Of a stretch of DNA of 64,000 nucleotides, positions 2,538 through 15,422 are shown one piece after another (the stretch's first letter is position 1; each line of letters begins with the position of its first letter). The notes below the pieces were generated by a model. It saw only the letters and a list, made by a program, of their open reading frames with translations. It did no database searches and was not told the DNA's origin. The DNA is from Anaerolineae bacterium (GTDB taxonomy: Bacteria > Chloroflexota > Anaerolineae > Aggregatilineales > Phototrophicaceae), in contig JALHNB010000013.1 of assembly GCA_022843745.1 (NCBI GenBank), positions 62,001 to 126,000 of the forward strand, given 5' to 3'. The position numbers and the translations under genes are program-made.

Positions 2538-3435
2538 TCTAATCTCACGTCGCACATCGTCAAGCCCTCGCAGCGGGTTTCGCATTTTCGTTTATGTGAT
2601 CCTATCCTTTGTAGCGATCATCTATATCGCGCCGTTTGTATTCATGCTCGGCAAATCGCTTCAGAACAATTTTGAAGCGAATAATACGCCGTCCGTGATT
2701 CCCAGTGAACCGCAGTTCCAGAACTATGCGGATGTGTTGTTCGGCTCATCGGATTTTGGCATTAACAACCGCTATGTGATCTATTTGCGCAATACGATTT
2801 TGCTGGAAGTCCTCTCGATTACCGGACAGACCTCGATCTGTGTGTTAGGGGCGTATGCCTTTGCGAGGATGAAGTTTCCCGGACGCGACCTGCTTTTTGG
2901 GATGCTTTTGCTGACACTGTTTGTCCCAAGTATCATTTTGCTCGTGCCAAATCTGATCGTCGTGACGCGCATTAGCCAGTTTTTCGAGAGCATTCATCCC
3001 TCGCTCAAGTGGTTAAATAGTTGGCCTGCGTTGGTCATCCCGTTCCTCAGCAATACCTTTAGTATCTTCCTGCTGCGGCAGTTTTTTATGCAAATTCCCA
3101 ATGAGCTGTGGGATGCAGCACAGATTGACGGCGCGAGTCATCTGCGTTTTCTGATGACTGTTGTCGTGCCGATCTCCGGTGCGCCGATTATGACGACCAT
3201 TCTGTTCGCGTTTGTCGGCGTTTGGAGCGCGCTAGAGTGGCCGATTCTGGTTACGTCTGATGAATCATGGCGACCCATTGCGGTGGCCTTGCAACAGTTC
3301 CGTCAGGAAGGCGGCACCAAGGTAAACCTCTTAATGGCGGCCTCGGTGATCGCCATGCTGCCGATTATGCTGCTCTACCTGTTTACGCAGAAGCAGTTCA
3401 CACAGGGTATCACGACCACCGGACTCAAGGGGTAA
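2530..3435 (+). CDS. Carbohydrate ABC transporter permease, MalG type
   Basis: Second permease of the importer, 301 aa, normal length for the family. An N-terminal membrane helix (FVYVILSFVAIIYIAPFVFM), a periplasmic loop and five further helices are visible, with the EAA loop WDAAQIDGASHLRFLMTVVV at about residues 197-216. The ATG at 2530 lies inside the end of the preceding permease gene (8-nt overlap), which indicates translational coupling. No ATP-binding subunit gene follows: the next gene is on the opposite strand and its end is 1 nt away. A shared MsmX/UgpC-type ATPase encoded elsewhere is the usual solution in sugar importers of this type. Confidence 0.92.
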   Translation: MASLISRRTSSSPRSGFRIFVYVILSFVAIIYIAPFVFMLGKSLQNNFEANNTPSVIPSEPQFQNYADVLFGSSDFGINNRYVIYLRNTILLEVLSITGQTSICVLGAYAFARMKFPGRDLLFGMLLLTLFVPSIILLVPNLIVVTRISQFFESIHPSLKWLNSWPALVIPFLSNTFSIFLLRQFFMQIPNELWDAAQIDGASHLRFLMTVVVPISGAPIMTTILFAFVGVWSALEWPILVTSDESWRPIAVALQQFRQEGGTKVNLLMAASVIAMLPIMLLYLFTQKQFTQGITTTGLKG

Positions 3436-3436
3436 T

Positions 3437-4165
3437 CTAGGTCAGGAACTGCCAGCTAGATACCTGCAAATTTAGCCCTTCGATGCACATCGCGGCTTTA
3501 TAACCGTCTCCTGCCGCGAAATCAACCATCGACCAGCGCGAGACCTCATCCGGATTTATGCGATTCGCGAGTAATTTTGGCGCTTCACCCGGAGCGAACG
3601 CCACATCAAAGCTGTCGAGTGGGCACGAAAGCCCTTCGCCGATAGCCTTGATGTACGCTTCTTTGCGAGTCCAGCAGGTGAAAAAAGCGTCAGCCCGCAA
3701 ATTTTGAGGCAACCGTTGGAAAACGGCGACTTCATTCTTCGAAAAATAATGCTCCGCGATCTCGACCCCGCTGAAATCAGGCCGCATGAGTTCGATGTCG
3801 ATGCCAAGCCTGCGACGGCGGGTGATGGCGTACAGCACCAGTTTGCCGGAATGAGAGAGATTGAAATTAAGCGCGTGGTCGCCTATCAGCGATGGTTTGC
3901 CGTGTGCGGTGTATTCGAATCGAAAATCAGCGGGTTTTTGCGACAGATACCTGCTGAGGAGTTCGCGCAGTTGACCACGTGCGGTGATATAGTGATTGCG
4001 ATCTTTTTCGAAGACAAAACGATTTGCCCGGCTGAGTTCGTCCTCAGTCAGGCATTCCCGAAGCTGTTGTAATCGGTTCGACGAAACTTCCAGCGATGCT
4101 CGCCAGACGTGAACCGCGTCATCAGCGAGGATCAGATCATCGGTTGGTGGCGACCAGATTGTCAT
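3437..4165 (-). CDS. 4'-Phosphopantetheinyl transferase, Sfp type
   Basis: 242 aa, the usual length of Sfp/Gsp-type enzymes, which transfer phosphopantetheine from CoA to the serine of carrier domains. Signature motifs are all present: GKPSL (89-93), FNLSHSG (101-107), GIDIE (121-125, Mg-binding D123 and E125) and CWTRKEAYIKAIGEGL (164-179, with W165, K168 and E169). The ATG at 4165 overlaps the stop codon of the polyketide synthase gene (ATGA), so it is the last gene of the biosynthetic operon. Its evident job is to convert the apo carrier domains of the two preceding megasynthases (serines of LGGES and LGGHS) to the holo form. It may also serve other synthases in the cell. Confidence 0.95.
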   Translation of the reverse strand: MTIWSPPTDDLILADDAVHVWRASLEVSSNRLQQLRECLTEDELSRANRFVFEKDRNHYITARGQLRELLSRYLSQKPADFRFEYTAHGKPSLIGDHALNFNLSHSGKLVLYAITRRRRLGIDIELMRPDFSGVEIAEHYFSKNEVAVFQRLPQNLRADAFFTCWTRKEAYIKAIGEGLSCPLDSFDVAFAPGEAPKLLANRINPDEVSRWSMVDFAAGDGYKAAMCIEGLNLQVSSWQFLT

Positions 4166-7100
4166 TTCGTCGCGACCAGCACTTGGCCCTCATGCTCTGC
4201 CCAGGCGCGATCAATGCAGTCACGAAGCTGCTCGGCCAACGCGCGGGCATAGGGTTCTCGTACCATAACCCCATGCTGCCCGACGCAGTGGTGAATTTCG
4301 ATCTCGCCGATTTTGTATTCGTCCCATCCCAGCAGCGGCGCATTATCGAGTGGGTGGCTGCGTTCGGTAGCGCGGAACAGGGTGAGCTTACCCGGATAGT
4401 CCGGCGGTTCGTAGCTGCGATAGGTCACTCCGTAGAGTTCCTCCAGATGGTAGGACAACAGATCGGGCGGCATGATCGAGCCATTTTTAAAGTGTTCCGC
4501 GATGGCTTTACGCTTATCTTCGATTTCTGCCAGTTTGTGCATATATTCGGCGTAGTTTTCGCGATTTTTGATGCGCTGTGCATAGTATCCGACTGGACCG
4601 AGCGTCAGCATTTCGCGCACATGCTTCATGGCGCGATGCGTTTTGGTTTCTTTTGGCGGCGACCACCAACTTCTGAGATTCGGTGGCGACCAGCTATCGA
4701 ACAACCCCAGGAGCGCGACTTGCTGGCCCTGCTCAACAAGATTATGCGCCATCTGATAGGCGACGATACCACCGATGGATGACCCGACTAAGTAATATGG
4801 TCCTTCCGGCTGGAAGTCGCGGATTTCCTTGAGATAGCGATGCGCCATCGCCTCGACGGTTGTGTCGAAATCATAAGTTCCGTCCACACCCTGGGCCTTG
4901 ATGCCATAGAAAGGTTGATCTTTGCCGAGGCGGTCAGCCAGCTCGCGATAAAGTAAAACATAGCCGTTCTGGTCATGGACGCAGAAAAGCGTTGGTCTGT
5001 CGCCTGCGGTCTGGATTCCGACCAATAGGGAACGATGCGAGAGTTTCTTGCGTGTTTTTTTGTTGTCCTTCGCTACGACTGTTTCCTCCACGACCTCGCC
5101 AATTTCCTCCGCGATGATTTCGCCGATCTGGGTCACAGTTGGTGCCTGGAACAACAAATCCATCGGCAGGTTGACGGCAAATATCTTGCGAATCTGTGTG
5201 AACAGGCGCACACCGATCAGCGATTCGCCGCCGAGTTCAAAGAAATCGTCCTGGATGCCAACCGTTTCGATCCCCAAAACTTCCTGCCAGATGGCGACCA
5301 GCTTTTTCTCAATCTCGTTGCGCGGGGCCTCATAATCGCTTTGCATATTCTCTGGTCGCGAGAATTTCATGCCCGATCCGCTGCTTTCCACTTCTGGCTC
5401 GGCATTGAGCTTATCCACGAGCAGGCGCAGGTCGAGTGAAGACGCGATAATCTGTGAACGCGGGTTGCCTGCCAGAATCCGGCTGAAAGCTTCCGCACCT
5501 TCATCCGGTAAAATGCCATCCGTCAGCGCCAATTGGAGCAGGTTTGGCTTACCGTTTTCGGCGGCTTGGCGAGGTGTTGCGGGGCGCTGTGTTGGTTTTA
5601 ACTTCGCGGGGTCAATGCGCCGCATCTTGAAGCCATTGATCTCGACCAGTGTCGTCCCGCTTTCGTCGAGAACGCCGATGTCAATGACAGCGAATTCTTT
5701 GCTCGACTCGACAAGCCGAGCGTAGCTGTAGATTTTTGTCGGCAGGGGCGCGTAGGCGCGGATGCTTTTGTAGGAAAATGGCACGAACATATCTTCAATG
5801 GAGTCATAGTTTTCGACCAGCGGCAGCGCGAAGCCCGTCGCCAAATCCATCAGGGCGGGGTGGAGGGTATAGTCGTGCATGTCGTTGGCAAATTCATCTG
5901 GCAGTTCCAGATAGGCCAGCGCTTCACTATCACCGAAATTCATCTGGCGCAGGACTTTCCAGCGTTCGCCGAATTTGAGATGATTTTCCTGGCGTGTAAA
6001 CTGCTCTTTGGGGCCGAACGTCACGACCTTGTTGTTGAAGCGCTGGCGGAGGGCATCAATATCGTAAACCTGCGGTGTGCCGTTGACATAGCCAACTTTG
6101 CCGCTGACATGCTCTTGCCACTCAGTCTCCGACTCTCCTCTGCTAGTCACGATAAAATTGTAGTCATCGCCGCTTTTGTTTAGGGTGACACGCACACGCC
6201 TGTTTTCATCATCGTTCACTTGCAGCGGAATCATGAACGAAAGATCGCGGATTTCGACAGTTCCTTGCGGCGCGTCTTTTTCGAGCGCAGCCTTCACGAT
6301 TTCCAGATAGCCCGTGCCGGGGATGAGCGCCTGACCCGTTCGCAAGCGGTGTTGATCTAGCACCCATCGCTCGTCTACCCGATAATTCGCCGCATAGACA
6401 ATCTCATCCGGCGTATCGGTGATGATCTCGCCCAGTAGGGGATGTTTCATCGGCTTGCCGGGAACTTCTTCTTCAGGCGCAAGCCCAAGCCGAACTGCCG
6501 TTGCCGCCGCCATGCCGACTTCCTGCCACAAGCCCCAATTGATGGCGATGACCGTGCTGCCCTGCGCGGATTTGCTATCGGCAAAGGCGTTCAGGAAGGC
6601 GTTCGCACCCGTGTAATCGACTTGCCCAGCGGAGGCGATCACCGTGCTGGTGGACGAAAACAGGACGAGGAAATCAAGTTTTGCGTCTTTCAGAAGATCA
6701 TCGAGGATTAGCGTCCCGCGCACTTTTGGCGCGAACACATTCTCAACCTGCTCAAGCGTTTTCAGTTGGATCAGGCCATCATCCAGCACGCCAGCGGCAT
6801 GGATAACGCCGTGAATCGCGCCGAATTGCTGATATGCCTGGTCGATGGCGGCGCGTAGCTGTGCGCGGTCACTGACATCAGCGGCGGCAACGATGACCTC
6901 CGCCCCCAAACTTTCCAGATTTTGCACTTTGCGGATTTGGCGGCTGATTTTGTCGTGCGCGGAGTGCGAATCCAGCCAACTCGACCATTCATCGTGGGCA
7001 GGCAGCCCCGTTCGCCCAACCAGCACGAGCTTGGCGTGCAGAGTGCGAGCGAGATATTCCGCATGGACGAGTCCGATTCCACCCAGACCGCCTGTGATGA

Positions 7101-10100
7101 GATACACGCCACCTTCGCGCATAAGGCTTTTTTCGTTTTGGGATTTTTCCAGCGCGGCGGGTTCAAAATCCTGCACCCAACGCTGATCCTCGCGATAAGC
7201 GGCTATCGTGTTTGTGGGCGCGGCAGATAACTCCACGAAAATCTGCTCGGCCAACGATTCACTTTCGGCTTGCAGACCATATTTGCTCGTCCCGAAAAGC
7301 GCGACATCAATGGATTGCGTGACAATATTCGGGAATTCCTGCGGGATCACTTTGGATGGGCCAATCAGCGTGGCTTTTTCAGGATAGGGCAGGCTTTCGC
7401 CGTTTACCTGCTGCATGCCGTTGGAAATTACCCACATTTGAACCGGATCGGTCACAGCTTCGTCGGCTAACGCTTGCGACAGGAATAACAGGCTGTAGAA
7501 ACCCCCATTTAGGCATTCTTCGAAAAATGTCAGGCGCGACTCAATCGGTTTATCCAGCGTGACCGACCAGAAATGGGCGATATTACGCGGAACGCCGCCA
7601 TTTTGCGCCAGATGTTTGATGAATTCGGTGTAATCGTGGCGCGAACGTGGGTCAATCGCAAAGGCGCTGTCGCCAAGCTGCGCGAATTGGTAGCCGGGAG
7701 TGATGATCGTCACATCCTGTCCGGCGGCTTCCAGTTGATCGGCAACCTGCGTACCCAGGCCGCATTCGTCCACGAATACCATCCAGCCCGATTGCTGTGC
7801 AGGATTTTCGACTTGCTTAGGCCAATCCGATTTTTTCCAGATTGGACGGTAGAACCAATCGGCAATATCGGGTATTTTCGTCAATGCTGCCCGCGCTGGA
7901 GTCGAAACGGTGTTGTAAAGCTGCTTGCCAGGTTCAATCCAGAATCGCTGGTGATCGAAAGCATAGGTGGGCAGCGGCACCCTGTAGCGCTGTTCACGCT
8001 CGTAAAAGGTTGCCCAATCGACGCTGCAACCACTAGCCCACAGCCGCCCCAGCGAGGTCAGCATAAAGCTTAAATCGGCTTCGGTTTCGCGCGGGTGGCG
8101 AAGCGACGGGAAAGTGATTTGCGATGCGGCTTTGTCCGGGTGTTGGCGGGCAAGCGTACTGAGGGTATTACCTGGGCCGACCTCAAGCAGAACCCGCTGC
8201 GGATTCTTCACCAGTTCGCCCACGCCGTCACTGAAGCGCACGGTATTACGAATGTGCTTCACCCAATAGTTGGGATCGACAGCTTCTTCGGTGCGAATCC
8301 AGGTGCCTGTTAAGTTGGAAATATAAGGGATTTCAGGCGCATGGAACTTGATGCCCGAAATACGCTTATGAAACTCGTCCAAAATTGGGTCAAGCAGCGG
8401 TGAGTGCATCGCGACTCGGACTTTTAGACGGCGGAACTCAATCTCATGTTCCGTCAGAGTCTTTTCCAGATTTTCGATGTCCGCCACCGCGCCGGAGAGT
8501 GCGTACAGTGACGGCGTGTTGATGACCGCAATCGAGACATGTCCATTCAGGATTTCTTCGAGGCCATCCGAAACCGGGACACTGAGCATCGCGCCTTCAT
8601 CGGTGGTATCCATCAGTGACGCACGTGCCAGCACCATCAGCAGCATGTCCGTCAGCGACATCACCCCGGCGAGACAGGCCGCCACGTATTCACCCAGGCT
8701 GTGTCCGATCATGGATTCGGGCTTGATGCCCCAGGACATCCACAATCTGGCTTGCGCATATTCAGTGATGACAATTGCAAGTTGCGAGGCTGTCATGCTC
8801 TTTTCGAACGCTTGGGATTTTTCTTCGACCTCGTTCTCATCGCAGAACATCAACGCGCGAAGGTCAAAATCAAGTCTGGATTTGAGAAATGTGAGGCATT
8901 TATCAACCTGCTCCCGATAAACAGGCTCGGATTCGTACAGGCCGCGTCCCATATTCGGATATTGCGCACCGCTGCCGGGGAACATGAATACGACAGGCGG
9001 CGCGTTTTCCGGCGCATTTTGCGAGAAAATCCGCTTGCGATCATTGCTTTCGATAACCGAAACGGCATCTTCGGCGCTCTGGACGACCATAATACGCCGT
9101 TGATTCATCTGGTTGCGGCCTACTTGCAGCGTATAAGCCGTATCCGCCAGATTTTGTTCAGGATGATTTTTCAGATGTTCAGCCAGATTTTTCGCGTTTT
9201 TGTCGAGTGCTGTGGTGGTCTTGGCGGAGAGCATCAGCAGTTGCCAGGGACGTGAGTTGCTCGAAGGGTCAAGAATGGGCGCTTCTTCAAGAATGATGTG
9301 CGCGTTCGTGCCACCAACACCCAATGAACTCACACCCGCGCGTCGTGGAAAGCCTTTGACATTCCAGTCGCGAAGCTGCGAGTTGACGTAAAACGGGCTG
9401 TTCTCAAAGTCGATCATTTTGTTCGGCTTTTCGAAATTCAGGCTTGGCGGAAGCTCCTTATTTTTGAGCGCCTGTACCGTCTTGATGATGCTGGCGACAC
9501 CCGCCGCTGTATCCAGATGACCGATATTCGTCTTGACTGAGCCGATGCCGCAGTAAACTTTTTTCTTCGTGCTGGCGCGGAATGCCTGTGTCAGCGCCGT
9601 GACTTCAATGGGGTCGCCGATATACGTGCCTGTACCGTGAGTCTCGACATAGGTGATTGTGTCCGCCGGGACATCAGCAATCGCCAGCGCTTCGGCAATC
9701 GCGGCTGCCTGACCATCAACACTGGGCGCGAGATAGCTGATTTTGCCCGCGCCATCGTTGTTAATGGCTGACCCGCGAATGACGGCATGGATGGTGTCAC
9801 CGTTGTTGATCGCGTCTTCCAGCCGTTTCAGCACAACCGCGCCGACACCGCTCCCGAAAACGGTTCCCTGCGAACTATCGTCAAAGGCGCGGCAGTGACC
9901 ATCCGGCGAGAGAATTTCGCCAGAGTGATACATATATCCCCGGCGGTGGGGCAGTTCAATCGTCACACCACCCGCCAGCGCCATATCGCATTCCTGATTC
10001 AGCAAACTTTGAGCCGCGATGTGCATGGCGACCAGCGAAGTCGAACAGGCCGTCTGGACATTGACACTTGGGCCTTTGAGATTAAGCAGATACGACACGC

Positions 10101-10605
10101 GCGTCGTCATAAAATCTTTGTCATTGCCGGTATGCCGCACCAGGAAAAAACCCACCGAATTCATGATTTCCGGGTTGGTCATCAGGTTCAGCGGCATATA
10201 GGCGTTCATGCCGGAGCCACCGTAAACACCAATTGCGCCGTCAAAACGGGCGGGGTCATAGCCGGCATGTTCCAGTGCTTCCCAACACGTCTCGATAAAA
10301 TGACGGTGCTGCGGATCCATGATCGACGAATCGCGCGGGCCGAGGCCAAAAAACGCGCCATCGAACATTTCCATATCTTCCAACGCGCCGCCCGCCGGGA
10401 CATAATTGGGGTTGCTCAGGGTAGCATCGTCCACGCCTGCGGTGCGCAACTCGTCATTGGTAAAGCGTGAGATGGATTCCACACCGTTGCGTATATTCTG
10501 CCAGAATTCATCGGGGTTTTTGGCATTCGGGAAACGGCCCGCCATGCCAATGATAGCAATTTCGGAGCCGTTTAATGTCTCAAGAATATCTTTATTGGTC
10601 ATCAT
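4162..10605 (-). CDS. Type I polyketide synthase, single module KS-AT-KR-DH-ACP-TE
   Basis: 2147 aa. Domains: ketosynthase about 14-440 (C187 in ACSTS, H323 in HGTGT, H363 in NIGHLD); acyltransferase about 537-840 (S636 in GHSLGEY, H734 in VAMHS); a structural then catalytic ketoreductase about 917-1370 (TGGLGGIG at 1171-1178, S1318, Y1331, N1335); dehydratase about 1388-1665 (HPLLGEI, H1419, HPALMD with D1587); acyl carrier about 1762-1835 (S1795 in LGGESL); thioesterase about 1860-2135 (S1943 in GSSIGG, H2111). No enoylreductase or methyltransferase. KR preceding DH is the reverse of the canonical order. The AT specificity box VAMH is neither the malonyl (HAFH) nor the methylmalonyl (YASH) consensus. 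The module should add one C2 unit to the upstream NRPS product, reduce and dehydrate it, and release it. ATGs at 10605 and 10602 are both possible starts; AGG at 10608-10610 fits 10602 better. Confidence 0.95.
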   Translation of the reverse strand: MMTNKDILETLNGSEIAIIGMAGRFPNAKNPDEFWQNIRNGVESISRFTNDELRTAGVDDATLSNPNYVPAGGALEDMEMFDGAFFGLGPRDSSIMDPQHRHFIETCWEALEHAGYDPARFDGAIGVYGGSGMNAYMPLNLMTNPEIMNSVGFFLVRHTGNDKDFMTTRVSYLLNLKGPSVNVQTACSTSLVAMHIAAQSLLNQECDMALAGGVTIELPHRRGYMYHSGEILSPDGHCRAFDDSSQGTVFGSGVGAVVLKRLEDAINNGDTIHAVIRGSAINNDGAGKISYLAPSVDGQAAAIAEALAIADVPADTITYVETHGTGTYIGDPIEVTALTQAFRASTKKKVYCGIGSVKTNIGHLDTAAGVASIIKTVQALKNKELPPSLNFEKPNKMIDFENSPFYVNSQLRDWNVKGFPRRAGVSSLGVGGTNAHIILEEAPILDPSSNSRPWQLLMLSAKTTTALDKNAKNLAEHLKNHPEQNLADTAYTLQVGRNQMNQRRIMVVQSAEDAVSVIESNDRKRIFSQNAPENAPPVVFMFPGSGAQYPNMGRGLYESEPVYREQVDKCLTFLKSRLDFDLRALMFCDENEVEEKSQAFEKSMTASQLAIVITEYAQARLWMSWGIKPESMIGHSLGEYVAACLAGVMSLTDMLLMVLARASLMDTTDEGAMLSVPVSDGLEEILNGHVSIAVINTPSLYALSGAVADIENLEKTLTEHEIEFRRLKVRVAMHSPLLDPILDEFHKRISGIKFHAPEIPYISNLTGTWIRTEEAVDPNYWVKHIRNTVRFSDGVGELVKNPQRVLLEVGPGNTLSTLARQHPDKAASQITFPSLRHPRETEADLSFMLTSLGRLWASGCSVDWATFYEREQRYRVPLPTYAFDHQRFWIEPGKQLYNTVSTPARAALTKIPDIADWFYRPIWKKSDWPKQVENPAQQSGWMVFVDECGLGTQVADQLEAAGQDVTIITPGYQFAQLGDSAFAIDPRSRHDYTEFIKHLAQNGGVPRNIAHFWSVTLDKPIESRLTFFEECLNGGFYSLLFLSQALADEAVTDPVQMWVISNGMQQVNGESLPYPEKATLIGPSKVIPQEFPNIVTQSIDVALFGTSKYGLQAESESLAEQIFVELSAAPTNTIAAYREDQRWVQDFEPAALEKSQNEKSLMREGGVYLITGGLGGIGLVHAEYLARTLHAKLVLVGRTGLPAHDEWSSWLDSHSAHDKISRQIRKVQNLESLGAEVIVAAADVSDRAQLRAAIDQAYQQFGAIHGVIHAAGVLDDGLIQLKTLEQVENVFAPKVRGTLILDDLLKDAKLDFLVLFSSTSTVIASAGQVDYTGANAFLNAFADSKSAQGSTVIAINWGLWQEVGMAAATAVRLGLAPEEEVPGKPMKHPLLGEIITDTPDEIVYAANYRVDERWVLDQHRLRTGQALIPGTGYLEIVKAALEKDAPQGTVEIRDLSFMIPLQVNDDENRRVRVTLNKSGDDYNFIVTSRGESETEWQEHVSGKVGYVNGTPQVYDIDALRQRFNNKVVTFGPKEQFTRQENHLKFGERWKVLRQMNFGDSEALAYLELPDEFANDMHDYTLHPALMDLATGFALPLVENYDSIEDMFVPFSYKSIRAYAPLPTKIYSYARLVESSKEFAVIDIGVLDESGTTLVEINGFKMRRIDPAKLKPTQRPATPRQAAENGKPNLLQLALTDGILPDEGAEAFSRILAGNPRSQIIASSLDLRLLVDKLNAEPEVESSGSGMKFSRPENMQSDYEAPRNEIEKKLVAIWQEVLGIETVGIQDDFFELGGESLIGVRLFTQIRKIFAVNLPMDLLFQAPTVTQIGEIIAEEIGEVVEETVVAKDNKKTRKKLSHRSLLVGIQTAGDRPTLFCVHDQNGYVLLYRELADRLGKDQPFYGIKAQGVDGTYDFDTTVEAMAHRYLKEIRDFQPEGPYYLVGSSIGGIVAYQMAHNLVEQGQQVALLGLFDSWSPPNLRSWWSPPKETKTHRAMKHVREMLTLGPVGYYAQRIKNRENYAEYMHKLAEIEDKRKAIAEHFKNGSIMPPDLLSYHLEELYGVTYRSYEPPDYPGKLTLFRATERSHPLDNAPLLGWDEYKIGEIEIHHCVGQHGVMVREPYARALAEQLRDCIDRAWAEHEGQVLVATK

Positions 10606-10748
10606 TACCTAATAATCTGTTGCCTGAATACGCTATAGTCTGATGCTTGAATACACTATAAATCTGATGATCGACTACGTTTTGTAGCGATCATAGTCTA
10701 CACTCCAGTTTTTATTTTACTTGTAATTGTCAAGTTTGCCCGTCGAAT
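10606..10748. repeat. Degenerate tandem repeat and hairpin in the PKS leader
   Basis: The 143 bases between the NRPS and PKS genes contain two clear repeats of about 23-24 bp plus a degenerate third on one side and a truncated one next to the start codon: on the plus strand, units begin with TCTGTTG at 10616, TCTGATG at 10639 and TCTGATG at 10663, each followed by a GAATAC-like and CTATA-like segment. A hairpin covers about 10668-10691 (GATCGACTAC and GTAGCGATC around a GTTTT loop). The repeats run up to the ribosome site of the PKS gene. Function unknown; a leader or protein-binding array is possible. Confidence 0.65.
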
Positions 10749-13700
10749 TTATCGGCGACCAAGACGCTGCTTACGTTTCTCTGCACGGCTCAGGCTCTTT
10801 TGCAGGCGCGAGTCGCCGCCATCATCTTGCTTGCTCAGATGATCGACGAGTGAACGGATTGTCGTGAAGCGGAACAGATCGGTGACGGTCAAATCGCTTT
10901 CAATGACTTGCTTCAATCGACGGTGAGCCTCAACCGTCAGCAGCGAATGTCCGCCCAGGTCGAAGAAATTGTCATTCATGCCGACACTGGAGACGTTCAA
11001 CACTTCGCGCCAGATCGCGGCGATCTTTTCTTCAATATCGCTTTCCGGCGCGATATAAACCGTTTCGCTGGTCAGCGCAGCCTGATCGGGCGCGGGCAGC
11101 ATCTTGCGATCTGTCTTGAGATTGGGTGTCAGCGGGAATTCTTTCATCGAGACGAAGTGCGCCGGGATCATGAATTCTGGCAGGTCGTCTTTCAGATAAT
11201 CGCGCAAATCACTCGTAGTCAGGTTTTGATTCGGATACGGGACGAAATAAGCGACTAATCGTTTGTCGCCGGGTACATCCTCGCGGGCGATGACCACCGA
11301 CTTGTTGATCGCTGGGTGCTTGTCGAGCAATTTTTCGATCTCGCCGAGTTCGATCCGATAGCCGCGAATCTTGACCTGGAAATCGTTGCGTCCCAAAAAC
11401 TCGATATTACCATCTGGTAAATAGCGAGCCAGATCGCCCGTGCGGTACATCCGCGCATTGGGATTATCGCTGAAGGGATTGGCGACGAATCGCTCTGCGG
11501 TCAGCTCCGCGCGGTTGAGATAGCCACGTGCCACGCCGTCTCCGCCGATGAATAATTCGCCTGCCACGCCAACCGGAACAGGTTGCAGGCAGCGGTCTAA
11601 AATAACCATCTGGGTGTTGGCGATAGGCGTACCGATAGGGATCATCCTCTGATCGCTTTCAACCGGGAAAGTCGATGACCAGATACAGGTTTCTGTCGGG
11701 CCATACATATTGATAATTTCGCCCGGTACAAGCTGCCGCAGCTCATCCGCCAGTGACACTGGGAACGCCTCGCCGCCGATCATCAGTTTTTGCAGCGATT
11801 TGAATGCCCCTCGTGTGTCGTCATTGATGAGAAGCATACTCGCCATCGACGGTGTGCATTGCATATGTGTGACGTTGTGGCGGGCGATCTGCGTCGGGAT
11901 AGAGTAATCGTCTCCTGCGCTGCGAAGTTTCTGGTTGGAAAGTTCGCGCAGGCGGTTCAACGGGTCGAGGCTGTTCAAAACCGTTTTTGAATCCACACCG
12001 AAGTCGATCAGGCAGGCGATTTCGTTAATGTTAATCGACTTGAGCTTGTTCACCAGTTCGAGACAGGTTTCCAGTGTGCCGAACAAGCCGCTGGTTTCGA
12101 AATAGCGCTCGAAAGCGAAGTTGAGAACCGCGTCTTTTTCTTCATCAGAGAGTGTCTGGCCTTCAAACATCTGGCGCAAGCTCTTGCCTGTGCTTTCGGC
12201 ACGCTGCTTGAATGCCGGGAATGACCAGGCCGCTTTTTCGGTGAGGTCGAGTGCGTCACGGAGGTAATTTTTCATGGGCTGGCGCACGATCTCGCGTACT
12301 TCGTCGTCGTCATCACCGACAAACGTGTGCAGCATCAGCGTCACATACCCTTTGCCGGGATGTCCCGCCTCGCGCCACGCATTGCGGTAAATTTCCAGCT
12401 TTTCGCCGAGTTCCTGAATATTTTGCCCCAGCAGGTGAGTCAAGATCGGGAAGCCTTTTGTCCCCGCCATCTGGAACGTCTCCGGGTTGCCCGCAATCGT
12501 AATCCATGACGGCAGTTCTGGCTGAATCGGACGCGGCAGGGTGCGCACGTTGACCTCTTTACCGTTCGGGCCGGGGAGGGCAACGGTTTCGCCGCGCCAT
12601 AATTTGCGCACCACTTCGATATTCTGGAACATGATATTTTTGCGATCTGCGAAATTTTCCGGCATCAGTACGAAGTCGTTGGGCTGCCAGCCAGCCGCGA
12701 ACGAAATCCCAACACGGCCTTTCGAAATATTATCGACCAGCGCCCATTCCTCGGTGATGCGAATCGGGTTGTGCAGTGGGATCACGCAGCTTCCGGCACG
12801 GATTTTGATGCGCTCAGTGATCGCGGCAATGGCGGCGCTGGCAACCGATGGGTTGGGATACAAACCGCCGAAAGCATAGAAATGGCGCTCCGGTGTCCAG
12901 ATGGCTTCGAAACCGTGACGATCACCAAATTTCGCGCCTTCCAGCAGCAGTTCATATTTATCGGCAACATTTTCACCTTCGTCGCTGGCGAAGTAGAACA
13001 GGCTAAAGTCAATTTCCTGGTCGCTGTAAGCGTTGTTGATGGCGGCTGCGGACATCGAGCGATCTTCGGCGTACAGCACCACTTTGAAGCCGCGTGTCAG
13101 TGTCCAGAATAGTTCCAGCACTGAAATATCAAACGATAAGCTCGTAACTGCCAGCCAGACACCCGGCGTTGTACCGAGACGTTCGTCCATGCCTGCGAAG
13201 AAATTGACGACATTGCGATGTTCGAGCATCACGCCTTTGGGCTTGCCCGTCGAGCCGGATGTGTAAATCAGATAGCTCATATGGTGGGGTGCGACGTTAA
13301 CCTGCGGATTATCCTTGCTCTCACGGGCGATCATCGGCCAGTCGGTATCAATGCTCACGACCTGTGCATTGTGCTGTGGCAGATCGGCAACCAGCTTTTG
13401 CTGCGTGAGCAGAACCGGAATCCCCGCGTCCTGGACCATGAAGGCGATGCGATCCGCCGGGTAGGAGGGGTCAAGCGGCAAATATGCGCCACCTGCTTTG
13501 TGGATGCCCATCAATCCGACGATCAGATTGAGCGAACGTTCCATGCAGATGCCGACGATGGTATCCGGCCCAACGCCAAGTTTGCGCAAATAATGGGCAA
13601 GCTGGTTGGCGCGTCGGTTGAGTTCGTAGTACGTGATTTCCTGATCTTCGAACACGACTGCCACCGAATCCGGCGTGCGTTCGACCTGCTTTTCGAACAG

Positions 13701-15422
13701 ATGATGGATGCAGGCATGGCGCGGATAATCCATCTGTGTCGCGTTCCACGCTAGCACGATCTGGCGATATTCGTCGTCGGAAAGCAGCGAAATTTCGGCA
13801 GCAGAACGTCCCATGTTAGCGATAATATTCCGCAAATAGCTCGTAAATTGGTGTTGAATGCGTGCGATGGCTTCCGCACTGAGCAGGGGAGTCTGGTAAA
13901 CCCACTGTGCTTGTGTGCCATCCTCCGCGATCAGCAGTGTTAATTCGCTCCCAAGAGCAGGTGTGTAATTTTCAAAATTCGCGACCTGCTCAACGGTGAC
14001 AGCGTATTTCGGCGCACCATGATCGCGCAGTGCTTTCATCTCCGGGTAACGGGCGATCACATCGCGGGCATAACTTTTGTGATTGCGGATATTCGCGATT
14101 TGTTTGAGGAGAGTCTGTACGCCATCCTGACCTGCGTCCAGATTCACACGCAGCGGCACGTAGGCAGCAAAAATATTTTCAAAGCCGTCAATTTCACTTT
14201 GTAAAGCGACATCGCGGAATCCGAGTGTCAACGAACTGCAGTTATTGATACGTGACAGATAATCGCCGAAAACTGCCGTGACGAGATCGGCTGCTGATTG
14301 GCCCCCAACCTGAAGCCCAGATGGGATGTTCATGGCGGCAGTCGCATATTGAGGTTCAGCCGCAGGTTCATAGACGCGATTGGTGTAGGGCGGTTCGGCA
14401 GGCTCGATTCTTGCCAGTTCGCCTAACCAGAAATCTTCATGACGCGCCAGCGATTTATTGATATTGCTCAGGCGCTCAACTGTGTCTGAGTCGAGTTCTT
14501 CGATCTGGTAGCCAACTTGTACGCCTGTTTGCGCGACAAATTGAGCAATTGTGATCGGTTGACCGTCAATCGTGAGCAGTTTGCGTAGGCCAACCTCACT
14601 GCTGGTCGTCGCGATCTTCATAAAATCTGAATTGACTTCGGTAATCACCCCCGGAGAATCGACTGAAGTTGAGCTGAGTATTTCGATCTCTGGCACGAGG
14701 TAAACAGTTTCACCGATCACCAATTTTGGCAGCGCCAACGGATTGGTGTAACGGTCTGGAATGCCAAAGTCCAGCGCGTGTACCAGCGCGGCGATATTTT
14801 CAGCATCCTGATTCCACCAGATAGCAGCAGCGGCGGAAGGGCGTTGGTATCTGCCGTAAAAATTCTTCTTGTTGCCGATCTGTTGAACAGGTGTCAGGGT
14901 GTCGTTGCCGAGTTCTTCCACGAGTTCACGAAATGATTCCTGGGCGACCTCATAATTTTTTGCGTTAATCGTAAACGAAGTTTCATTTTCATCGACTTCA
15001 AACACGACTTGCTTGAGGATTTCACCCGTATCGACTTCAGCTTCCATAACGTGCCAGGTGATGCCATAAGTCGGTTCGCGGTTCATCAACGCCCATGCGG
15101 GTGTGTACAAGCCACCATAACGCGGCAGTGGCCCATCGTGAAAATTAATGGATAATTTGCGCGGCAGTTTTAGAATTTCGCCGGGGATAATCGACAAATT
15201 CGCGACGCTGAATAGGTAATCAAAGGGCTGCTGGCTCAAAATATCAGCCAGATTATCTTTAGGATTAATAACTGCAATATCATGTTGGCCGGCCCAGTCC
15301 TTGATATTTGTGTTGGCCGAGATGATGCCGTTTACTTCATGTCCGGCTTGCAAGAGAATCTCAGCGCATTGAACCAGGAGCGTTCCTTCGCCAATGATAA
15401 AACAGTTGAATTTCTGATTCAT
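10749..15422 (-). CDS. Nonribosomal peptide synthetase loading module: formyltransferase, half condensation, adenylation with embedded luciferase-like monooxygenase, carrier
   Basis: 1557 aa from the ATG at 15422, which has GGAGG 4 nt upstream; the frame extends 15 codons further to 15467. Domains: formyl-tetrahydrofolate-dependent formyltransferase about 1-300 (NFHDGPLPRYGG at 93-104, N93/H95, D131 in VDTGEI); C-terminal half only of a condensation domain about 325-560, lacking HHxxxDG; adenylation part 1 about 570-795 (YTSGSTGKPKG at 720-730, FDIS with D765); flavin-dependent luciferase-like monooxygenase about 804-1150; adenylation part 2 about 1170-1445 (NMYGPTET, YRTGDLARYLPDG, K1436); carrier about 1458-1535 (S1493 in LGGHSLL); basic tail. 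Read by alignment to GrsA, the ten specificity residues are D-I-L-Q-M-G-M-I-W-K, nearly the glycine code D-I-L-Q-L-G-L-I-W-K as I remember it. Infer an N-formylated, possibly oxidised glycyl starter passed to the PKS module. Confidence 0.93.
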   Translation of the reverse strand: MNQKFNCFIIGEGTLLVQCAEILLQAGHEVNGIISANTNIKDWAGQHDIAVINPKDNLADILSQQPFDYLFSVANLSIIPGEILKLPRKLSINFHDGPLPRYGGLYTPAWALMNREPTYGITWHVMEAEVDTGEILKQVVFEVDENETSFTINAKNYEVAQESFRELVEELGNDTLTPVQQIGNKKNFYGRYQRPSAAAAIWWNQDAENIAALVHALDFGIPDRYTNPLALPKLVIGETVYLVPEIEILSSTSVDSPGVITEVNSDFMKIATTSSEVGLRKLLTIDGQPITIAQFVAQTGVQVGYQIEELDSDTVERLSNINKSLARHEDFWLGELARIEPAEPPYTNRVYEPAAEPQYATAAMNIPSGLQVGGQSAADLVTAVFGDYLSRINNCSSLTLGFRDVALQSEIDGFENIFAAYVPLRVNLDAGQDGVQTLLKQIANIRNHKSYARDVIARYPEMKALRDHGAPKYAVTVEQVANFENYTPALGSELTLLIAEDGTQAQWVYQTPLLSAEAIARIQHQFTSYLRNIIANMGRSAAEISLLSDDEYRQIVLAWNATQMDYPRHACIHHLFEKQVERTPDSVAVVFEDQEITYYELNRRANQLAHYLRKLGVGPDTIVGICMERSLNLIVGLMGIHKAGGAYLPLDPSYPADRIAFMVQDAGIPVLLTQQKLVADLPQHNAQVVSIDTDWPMIARESKDNPQVNVAPHHMSYLIYTSGSTGKPKGVMLEHRNVVNFFAGMDERLGTTPGVWLAVTSLSFDISVLELFWTLTRGFKVVLYAEDRSMSAAAINNAYSDQEIDFSLFYFASDEGENVADKYELLLEGAKFGDRHGFEAIWTPERHFYAFGGLYPNPSVASAAIAAITERIKIRAGSCVIPLHNPIRITEEWALVDNISKGRVGISFAAGWQPNDFVLMPENFADRKNIMFQNIEVVRKLWRGETVALPGPNGKEVNVRTLPRPIQPELPSWITIAGNPETFQMAGTKGFPILTHLLGQNIQELGEKLEIYRNAWREAGHPGKGYVTLMLHTFVGDDDDEVREIVRQPMKNYLRDALDLTEKAAWSFPAFKQRAESTGKSLRQMFEGQTLSDEEKDAVLNFAFERYFETSGLFGTLETCLELVNKLKSININEIACLIDFGVDSKTVLNSLDPLNRLRELSNQKLRSAGDDYSIPTQIARHNVTHMQCTPSMASMLLINDDTRGAFKSLQKLMIGGEAFPVSLADELRQLVPGEIINMYGPTETCIWSSTFPVESDQRMIPIGTPIANTQMVILDRCLQPVPVGVAGELFIGGDGVARGYLNRAELTAERFVANPFSDNPNARMYRTGDLARYLPDGNIEFLGRNDFQVKIRGYRIELGEIEKLLDKHPAINKSVVIAREDVPGDKRLVAYFVPYPNQNLTTSDLRDYLKDDLPEFMIPAHFVSMKEFPLTPNLKTDRKMLPAPDQAALTSETVYIAPESDIEEKIAAIWREVLNVSSVGMNDNFFDLGGHSLLTVEAHRRLKQVIESDLTVTDLFRFTTIRSLVDHLSKQDDGGDSRLQKSLSRAEKRKQRLGRR

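Follow-up and report, generated by a model that had tools for sequence, protein, structure and literature searches.

The 64,000-nucleotide stretch of an Anaerolineae (Chloroflexota) genome analysed here (the window) carries three collinear neighbouring genes on its minus strand, all intact, which encode a non-ribosomal peptide synthetase (NRPS), a type I polyketide synthase (PKS) and an Sfp-type phosphopantetheinyl transferase (PPTase) (Table 1). We give even odds (a probability of about 0.5) that this compact NRPS-PKS line makes one small C4 formamido-acid from N-formylglycine and one C2 unit. The line is a member of a broader group rather than unique. Rhodobacterales, Hyphomicrobiales and a second Chloroflexota genome (G289) also carry both synthases and keep their active sites, and the similarity of the NRPS homologues to the window protein is far above chance. 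The first-pass annotation, made from the sequence alone, knew of no described product for this exact line; the line itself is no one-off but a recurring unit in other bacteria.

The same annotation had placed three same-strand genes here, with overlap between those for the PKS and the PPTase, and this was confirmed, the overlap being 4 bp. The NRPS start codon, an ATG with an upstream GGAGG, agrees with that of homologues. Breakage by assembly error, named in advance as a possible refutation, was rejected for the window copy: with zero internal stops, a homologue-matched start and collinear relatives, broken or chimeric genes were ruled out. The host genome (7.96 Mb, listed as 98.6% complete with 4.04% contamination) carries the trio on contig C13.

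Table 1. Genes and NRPS domains of the assembly line (window coordinates)
Feature	Coordinates	Strand	Description and basis
NRPS loading module, FT-C'-A(LLM inserted)-T	10749..15422	-	1557 aa; domain searches, ATG with GGAGG
Formyltransferase (FT) domain, residues 1-300	14523..15422	-	N93-x-H95 and D131; predicted fold Fmt/ArnA-like
Degenerate C-lobe-like linker (C'), residues 325-560	13743..14450	-	no HHxxxDG
Adenylation (A) domain, two halves, residues 565-1445	11088..13730	-	putative glycine code DILQMGMIWK
MupA/Atu3671-family FMN luciferase-like monooxygenase (LLM) in A domain, residues 806-1159	11946..13007	-	TIGR04020
Peptidyl carrier (T), residues 1465-1529	10836..11030	-	Pfam
Type I PKS module, KS-AT-KR-DH-ACP-TE	4162..10605	-	2147 aa; Pfam and aligned active sites
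Sfp/HetI-type PPTase	3437..4165	-	242 aa; Pfam/NCBIfam

The formylating loading module

For comparison of residues, 31 regions (window included) were collected, with genes called by a longest-frame rule, giving 30 aligned NRPS rows and 26 PKS rows. The NRPS rows omit L014 (overlapping frame); the PKS rows omit G361, L012 and L018 (contig ends), L055 (two frames) and G790 (different line).

The N-terminal FT domain matches Formyl_trans_N (residues 57-163) in Pfam/NCBIfam searches and, weakly, Formyl_trans_C (199-297; 21.7 bits against a cut-off of 21.1). In a predicted model of NRPS residues 1-560 (pLDDT 86), the FT fold matches the Fmt and ArnA formyltransferases (E ~1e-23). The N-x-H and D residues, which we take to be catalytic as in Fmt, are retained almost throughout (Asn 30/30, His 29/30, Asp 30/30). 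In sequence, the domain scores highest against WbkC (60.1 bits), QdtF (55.4) and Fmt (52.8), and 29.4 bits against LgrA. The trait that marks an LgrA-kind loading module is present, namely an FT fused N-terminally to an A-T module with its catalytic residues kept. It is likely that this FT works like the LgrA F domain and was recruited separately.

The C' stretch downstream (residues ~325-560) has no Pfam match and no HHxxxDG motif; a weak sequence match is to a microcystin-synthetase C-A junction (E 0.032), and the C-lobe part of the 1-560 model gave no separate structural match among the 50 best matches listed. Lacking HHxxxDG, the 'half C' of the first-pass annotation can be no more than a non-catalytic remnant.

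In Pfam searches the AMP-binding domain is split (576-794 and ~1178-1377), its halves flanking the luciferase-like monooxygenase. The binding pocket reads DILQMGMIWK; the pattern DILQxG(M/L)(I/V)W, which we take to be a glycine code, is present in 30/30 NRPS rows (that of L018 ends before the A-domain lysine), and the same code recurs in three of three further loci (L087-L089, the last a further Ruegeria). The code supports the glycine-like starter first proposed. The embedded LLM scores 501 bits against NCBIfam TIGR04020 (cut-off 244), and its best match in the Protein Data Bank (PDB) is PuwE (6ket, E 1.8e-117). Its WTPERHF motif is present in all 30 rows. A loading module with an FT, an A domain with embedded monooxygenase and a carrier is accordingly borne out by Pfam/NCBIfam and by conserved residues. 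That the product was 'possibly oxidised further' understated the case, the LLM being amongst the best-conserved parts of the line and lying inside a glycine A domain.

The PKS module and PPTase

The PKS consists, by Pfam, of ketosynthase (KS), acyltransferase (AT), ketoreductase (KR; 1166-1362), dehydratase (DH; 1388-1668), acyl carrier protein (ACP; 1768-1829) and thioesterase (TE; 1872-1995) domains. The KS Cys, ACP Ser, KR Tyr/Asn, DH His/Asp and TE Ser/Asp/His are found in 26/26 rows; the AT was scored over these rows by its GHSxGE motif, from which one row deviates at the first Gly. The reading of a single module ending in a TE is upheld by the KR, DH and TE active sites. The LDD motif of the KR presumably marks it as B type. 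Structures 8xju and 8xjz are near the top amongst the solved PKS structures matching this protein. A Planktothrix agardhii plasmid PKS (L086:14986-22518) has the identical KS-AT-KR-DH-carrier-TE order. Its neighbours are NRPS and phytanoyl-CoA dioxygenase genes, and that stretch gave no match to the FT or the LLM.

The PPTase is the only Sfp-type enzyme found in the window's genome (G000), the other ACPS-family match being a 123-aa frame. It does adjoin the synthases, as would a carrier-activating enzyme of their own, but as the sole Sfp-type enzyme found it need not be dedicated to this line. A second NRPS with several A domains (G000:C2:330460-338246) lies at the end of contig C2, where it is probably cut off by the assembly; the window PPTase probably serves this NRPS also.

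Proposed product and alternatives

In the proposed pathway, the A domain would load glycine onto the NRPS carrier, as its code indicates, and the FT, judged by its fold and its N/H/D residues, would formylate the amino group, presumably from 10-formyl-tetrahydrofolate. By analogy with MupA and the myxothiazol-type monooxygenase (MOx) domains, the LLM probably hydroxylates the glycine Cα, using FMNH2 from a reductase encoded elsewhere, and the N-formyl group may keep the resulting N-acyl hemiaminal from losing its nitrogen. The PKS would then add one malonyl unit, the KR and DH would convert this to a trans-2-enoyl chain, and the TE would release or transfer 4-formamido-but-2-enoate, most likely bearing a 4-OH. 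The adjacent PPTase would prime both carriers. Many of the bacteria with this line may attach the acyl group to a surface polysaccharide; in the window's Chloroflexota genome the trio is solitary, and the product may be secreted or used elsewhere. Within the accessible parts of the sources, MOx domains in glycine A domains are described as hydroxylating Cα in myxothiazol and melithiazol (PMC11342130), and MupA as hydroxylating alpha to an ACP thioester and requiring a flavin reductase (PMC10952193). The chemistry first suggested, a single C2 extension of formylglycine followed by reduction and dehydration, was a fair guess and is plausible.

Several observations weigh against this pathway. The DH follows the KR, a feature that the first-pass annotation did not mention; this departs from the canonical KS-AT-DH-KR-ACP order and makes iterative action possible; a single C2 extension is what we infer rather than what the domain order dictates. 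The AT carries GHSLGE and VAMH, lacks HAFH and has no textbook malonyl motif. One genome (G703) has an FT without the catalytic His. In Deinococcus, no matching TE was seen in the PKS and the C' did not score. Release of a C4 acid by the TE is not universal, since the Aliiroseovarius (L057) and gammaproteobacterial (G790) lines are longer. Lastly, the Cα hydroxylation of the myxothiazol type cleaves the N-C bond, according to the accessible part of PMC11342130.

This last point underlies a rather unlikely alternative, in which LLM hydroxylation breaks the N-C bond to leave a glyoxylyl-carrier (and formamide), and the PKS extends the glyoxylate to a 4-oxo-butenoate-type product; for an LLM in a glycine A domain, that is the outcome reported for myxothiazol and melithiazol (PMC11342130, accessible part). 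There, however, a terminating TE releases the oxidized glycine, whereas here the module comes first, and a conserved FT would be wasted on a nitrogen that leaves. N-Acyl-hydroxyglycine is also fairly stable, as is familiar from peptide amidation, which again counts against cleavage.

Less probable still is an iterative PKS that builds a longer (polyene) chain on the formyl-glycine starter. The KR-DH order resembles what we take to be that of iterative enediyne and polyunsaturated fatty acid-type synthases, but a single pass fits better with L057, where KS-AT-KR-DH-ACP is fused to an additional A-carrier-TE part.

It seems improbable that the FT formylates an amino sugar instead of carrier-bound glycine, with the NRPS-PKS making an unformylated acyl group for the same polysaccharide. 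The FT sequence is nearer to the sugar N-formyltransferases WbkC and QdtF than to LgrA, and most relatives lie amongst polysaccharide genes, but most copies have FT and loading module in one protein and the window flanks contain no polysaccharide-family gene. Cyclization of the FT-glycine starter to an oxazole, presumably as in oxazolomycin/conglobatin-type lines, would share the formyl-glycine start followed by a PKS but is very improbable, given a KR and DH that look active and would consume the ketone, and no cyclodehydratase candidate amongst the eight flanking genes tested.

Relatives and distribution

Full-length collinear NRPS homologues share ~41-50% identity with the window protein; G289 shares 58-63% over the part in common, its FT lying in a separate frame that is either a real split or an assembly frameshift. 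The glycine code and nearly all active sites are conserved across distant bacteria. One genome per species was scanned with six exact 8-residue patterns, which miss distant copies, and 39 loci matched. An FT-A-LLM-T NRPS is present in 16 of these (L009-L022, L024 and L025), mostly from Rhodobacteraceae, and a PKS or part of one adjoins the NRPS in nearly all. Amongst plasmid records, at least 80% of the NRPS is covered in 12 of the 76 that match; the carriers include Ruegeria, Methylobacterium, Aminobacter, Shinella, Rhizobium and Neorhizobium. The plasmid NRPSs of Mycetohabitans, Bradyrhizobium and Rhizobium in hits H29-H40 match mainly the part from the FT to the first half of the A domain. 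In Rhizobium sp. BG6 the PKS (L055:11168-17685) lies in two overlapping frames and in R. grahamii in one, reflecting a frameshift or a sequencing error.

Sampling at E 1e-250 found matches in 7/385 Alphaproteobacteria and 2/369 Gammaproteobacteria, search centres included. In the gammaproteobacterium G361 the contig ends within the PKS, so that only its beginning is seen with the NRPS; G790 carries a different and longer line. At E 1e-180, 5/301 Chloroflexota match: two of them, the window and G289, represent this type, two more (G184 and G082) have large NRPS-PKS frames, and G293 has a fragment. The G184 frame (L049, G184:C2:944509-947541) is an 8369-aa open frame matching the A(LLM)-T part of the NRPS. 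The line is absent from a sample of 60 family or order relatives of the window's genome at E 1e-100, which makes loss or transfer likely. In a tree of the A-LLM-T part, in which the root is unsure, G790 and L088 are long-branched and the window is amongst the compositionally odd rows, the window groups with G289 and a Gemmatimonadaceae fragment (support 96/93).

Paracoccus (L087) and Deinococcus (L088) have a stand-alone FT gene beside C'-A(LLM)-T and PKS genes, with the same glycine code. As the FT is separate yet adjacent in both, FT and LLM co-occur even when unfused. The longer versions in Aliiroseovarius (L057, 18001-31740) and G790 (C5 region, L080/L081) have further NRPS modules.

Three reported systems were considered as the same line. 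The Agrobacterium vitis necrosis PKS/NRPS was dropped, as we take it to include an aminotransferase and the literature gave side mentions only. Phaeobacter inhibens Inhi_1972/1974 may be this locus, the accessible part of its source giving no domains, and that for Tritonibacter mobilis AK171 does not show its 'unknown' type I PKS and NRPS-like clusters to be this locus.

Association with polysaccharide genes

Profiles for ten families covering glycosyltransferases, assembly and export were searched for within 12 kb of 34 loci. At least two of the ten families were found at 28 loci, and 27 loci had one or more of the six assembly families. Single matches were obtained for G790, L018 (a 6.9-kb contig) and L088; in the last of these, Deinococcus, the pair is nevertheless surrounded by capsule and polysaccharide genes according to its record. 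In most Rhodobacteraceae loci, which are not independent of one another, a family-2 glycosyltransferase gene lies between the PKS and NRPS genes, and the surrounding genes are of Wzz, Wzx, WecG, sugar-transferase and polymerase type. A control set of 22 other NRPS loci gave no profile matches in only 100.7 kb outside NRPS/PKS genes. Because this held so little such sequence, a second control was added, comprising 20 stretches (400 kb) at author-chosen positions in four of the same genomes, again with no matches. The control row cWIN40_64 was excluded, since only loci with an NRPS/PKS core are scored.

The window itself, G703 and L057 have none of the ten families within 12 kb. The polysaccharide link thus belongs to the relatives and is absent beside the window copy; six sugar transferases are encoded elsewhere in the window's genome.

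A putative partner is an SGNH-like protein. A protein of the c4 group (~300-360 aa) or the c26 group lies beside the trio in 14/31 regions, and GHS and D-x-x-H are invariant in the ten of these proteins that were aligned. There was no Pfam match above cut-off (best DUF4886, E 0.011). The modelled protein has an N-terminal long helix over a hydrophobic stretch, and its nearest fold, the only structural match under E 0.001, is the SGNH hydrolase 4s1p (E 3.2e-5, TM 0.40/0.64), with several other esterases next. SGNH proteins include polysaccharide acyltransferases and esterases, so that this protein could add or remove the acyl group. Larger family c4 proteins (~550-850 aa; L079:2671-5229 and relatives), which have no Pfam match, are encoded in Rhodobacteraceae polysaccharide clusters; the L079 protein has a GHSLF SGNH-like motif near its start.

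Tentatively, and with less confidence than for the C4 product, we suggest that this is a dedicated line for the non-sugar decoration of surface polysaccharides, with formyl as a protecting group and the window copy detached from an acceptor encoded elsewhere. The formyl group would let the LLM oxidize glycine with the nitrogen kept, and the formylated, Cα-hydroxylated glycine would become a formamido-butenoyl group. In Alphaproteobacteria the TE and a membrane-anchored SGNH acyltransferase may hand this group to an exported glycan; in the gammaproteobacterium, Deinococcota and some Chloroflexota, transfer would be by other means.

The lack of polysaccharide families beside the window copy speaks against decoration, as does G289, whose six profile matches are all general glycosyltransferases. 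The window's genome gave no match to the SGNH profile, in a search without a positive control. Training of the polysaccharide profiles used 31 of these loci, and the loci outside this set gave nine (L087), one (L088) and four (L089) matches. Pfam supports the labels of seven of the ten families; 'kinase' has no Pfam match and 'Wzy' is under cut-off, both labels being assigned by the analysis author, and 'GT2c' was outside the Pfam test.

Free metabolites are the products usually expected of assembly lines, and this small line lies amongst polysaccharide genes in most of the loci sampled. If it decorates glycans, it would link NRPS/PKS enzymology with cell-surface chemistry. With two synthases and one PPTase the system is small enough for reconstitution in vitro, which could address why glycine formylation comes together with a monooxygenase.

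Comparison with known systems

A monooxygenase inside a glycine-activating A domain is likewise found in the myxothiazol and melithiazol clusters and some corallorazine-like ones (PMC11342130, accessible part). In systems of the myxothiazol kind the module is terminal and the oxidized glycine is cleaved and released by a TE, whereas here a starting module with an FT, and without its own TE, precedes a KR-DH PKS. The myxothiazol and melithiazol MOx domains presumably belong to the same LLM family.

LgrA of linear gramicidin synthetase, which loads valine, likewise has an N-terminal FT on an NRPS loading module. The window FT differs in standing closer, by sequence, to sugar and tRNA formyltransferases than to LgrA (PDB 6mfz and others) and in covering a complete Fmt/ArnA-like fold, and the NRPS has a C-lobe-like remnant between FT and A, an LLM insert and the glycine code.

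PuwE of puwainaphycin provides the closest solved LLM domain (PDB 6ket). There an aminotransferase accompanies the monooxygenase between the PKS and NRPS modules, and the monooxygenase is thought, in the accessible part of PMC4219810, to tailor a polyketide chain. MupA of mupirocin, the namesake of TIGR04020, alpha-hydroxylates a carrier-bound thioester; as far as the accessible part of PMC10952193 goes, it acts in trans on a beta-keto polyketide, unlike the LLM embedded in the window A domain. FbnE of fabrubactin is also a flavin-dependent monooxygenase but serves a siderophore line, and alpha-hydroxycarboxylate formation was proposed for it (PMC12971057, accessible part). We take FbnE to be Atu3671 or a TIGR04020 member. 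A characterised cluster with the same domain string, which would have counted against the first-pass reading, did not turn up in the open PubMed Central literature, nor did any description of the string or of its link to polysaccharide genes, subscription papers and biosynthetic gene cluster databases being outside the scope of the search.

Flanking genes

The eight flanking genes tested are ordinary, and encode ABC-transporter permeases, an alpha/beta hydrolase, a DUF4058 protein, a methyltransferase, an aldehyde dehydrogenase and a solute-binding protein. A promoter/terminator scan 5' of the NRPS gene found none and was uninformative. Downstream of the PKS, the PPTase gene and a sugar-ABC permease gene are convergent and lie 1 base apart (window 3435-3437).

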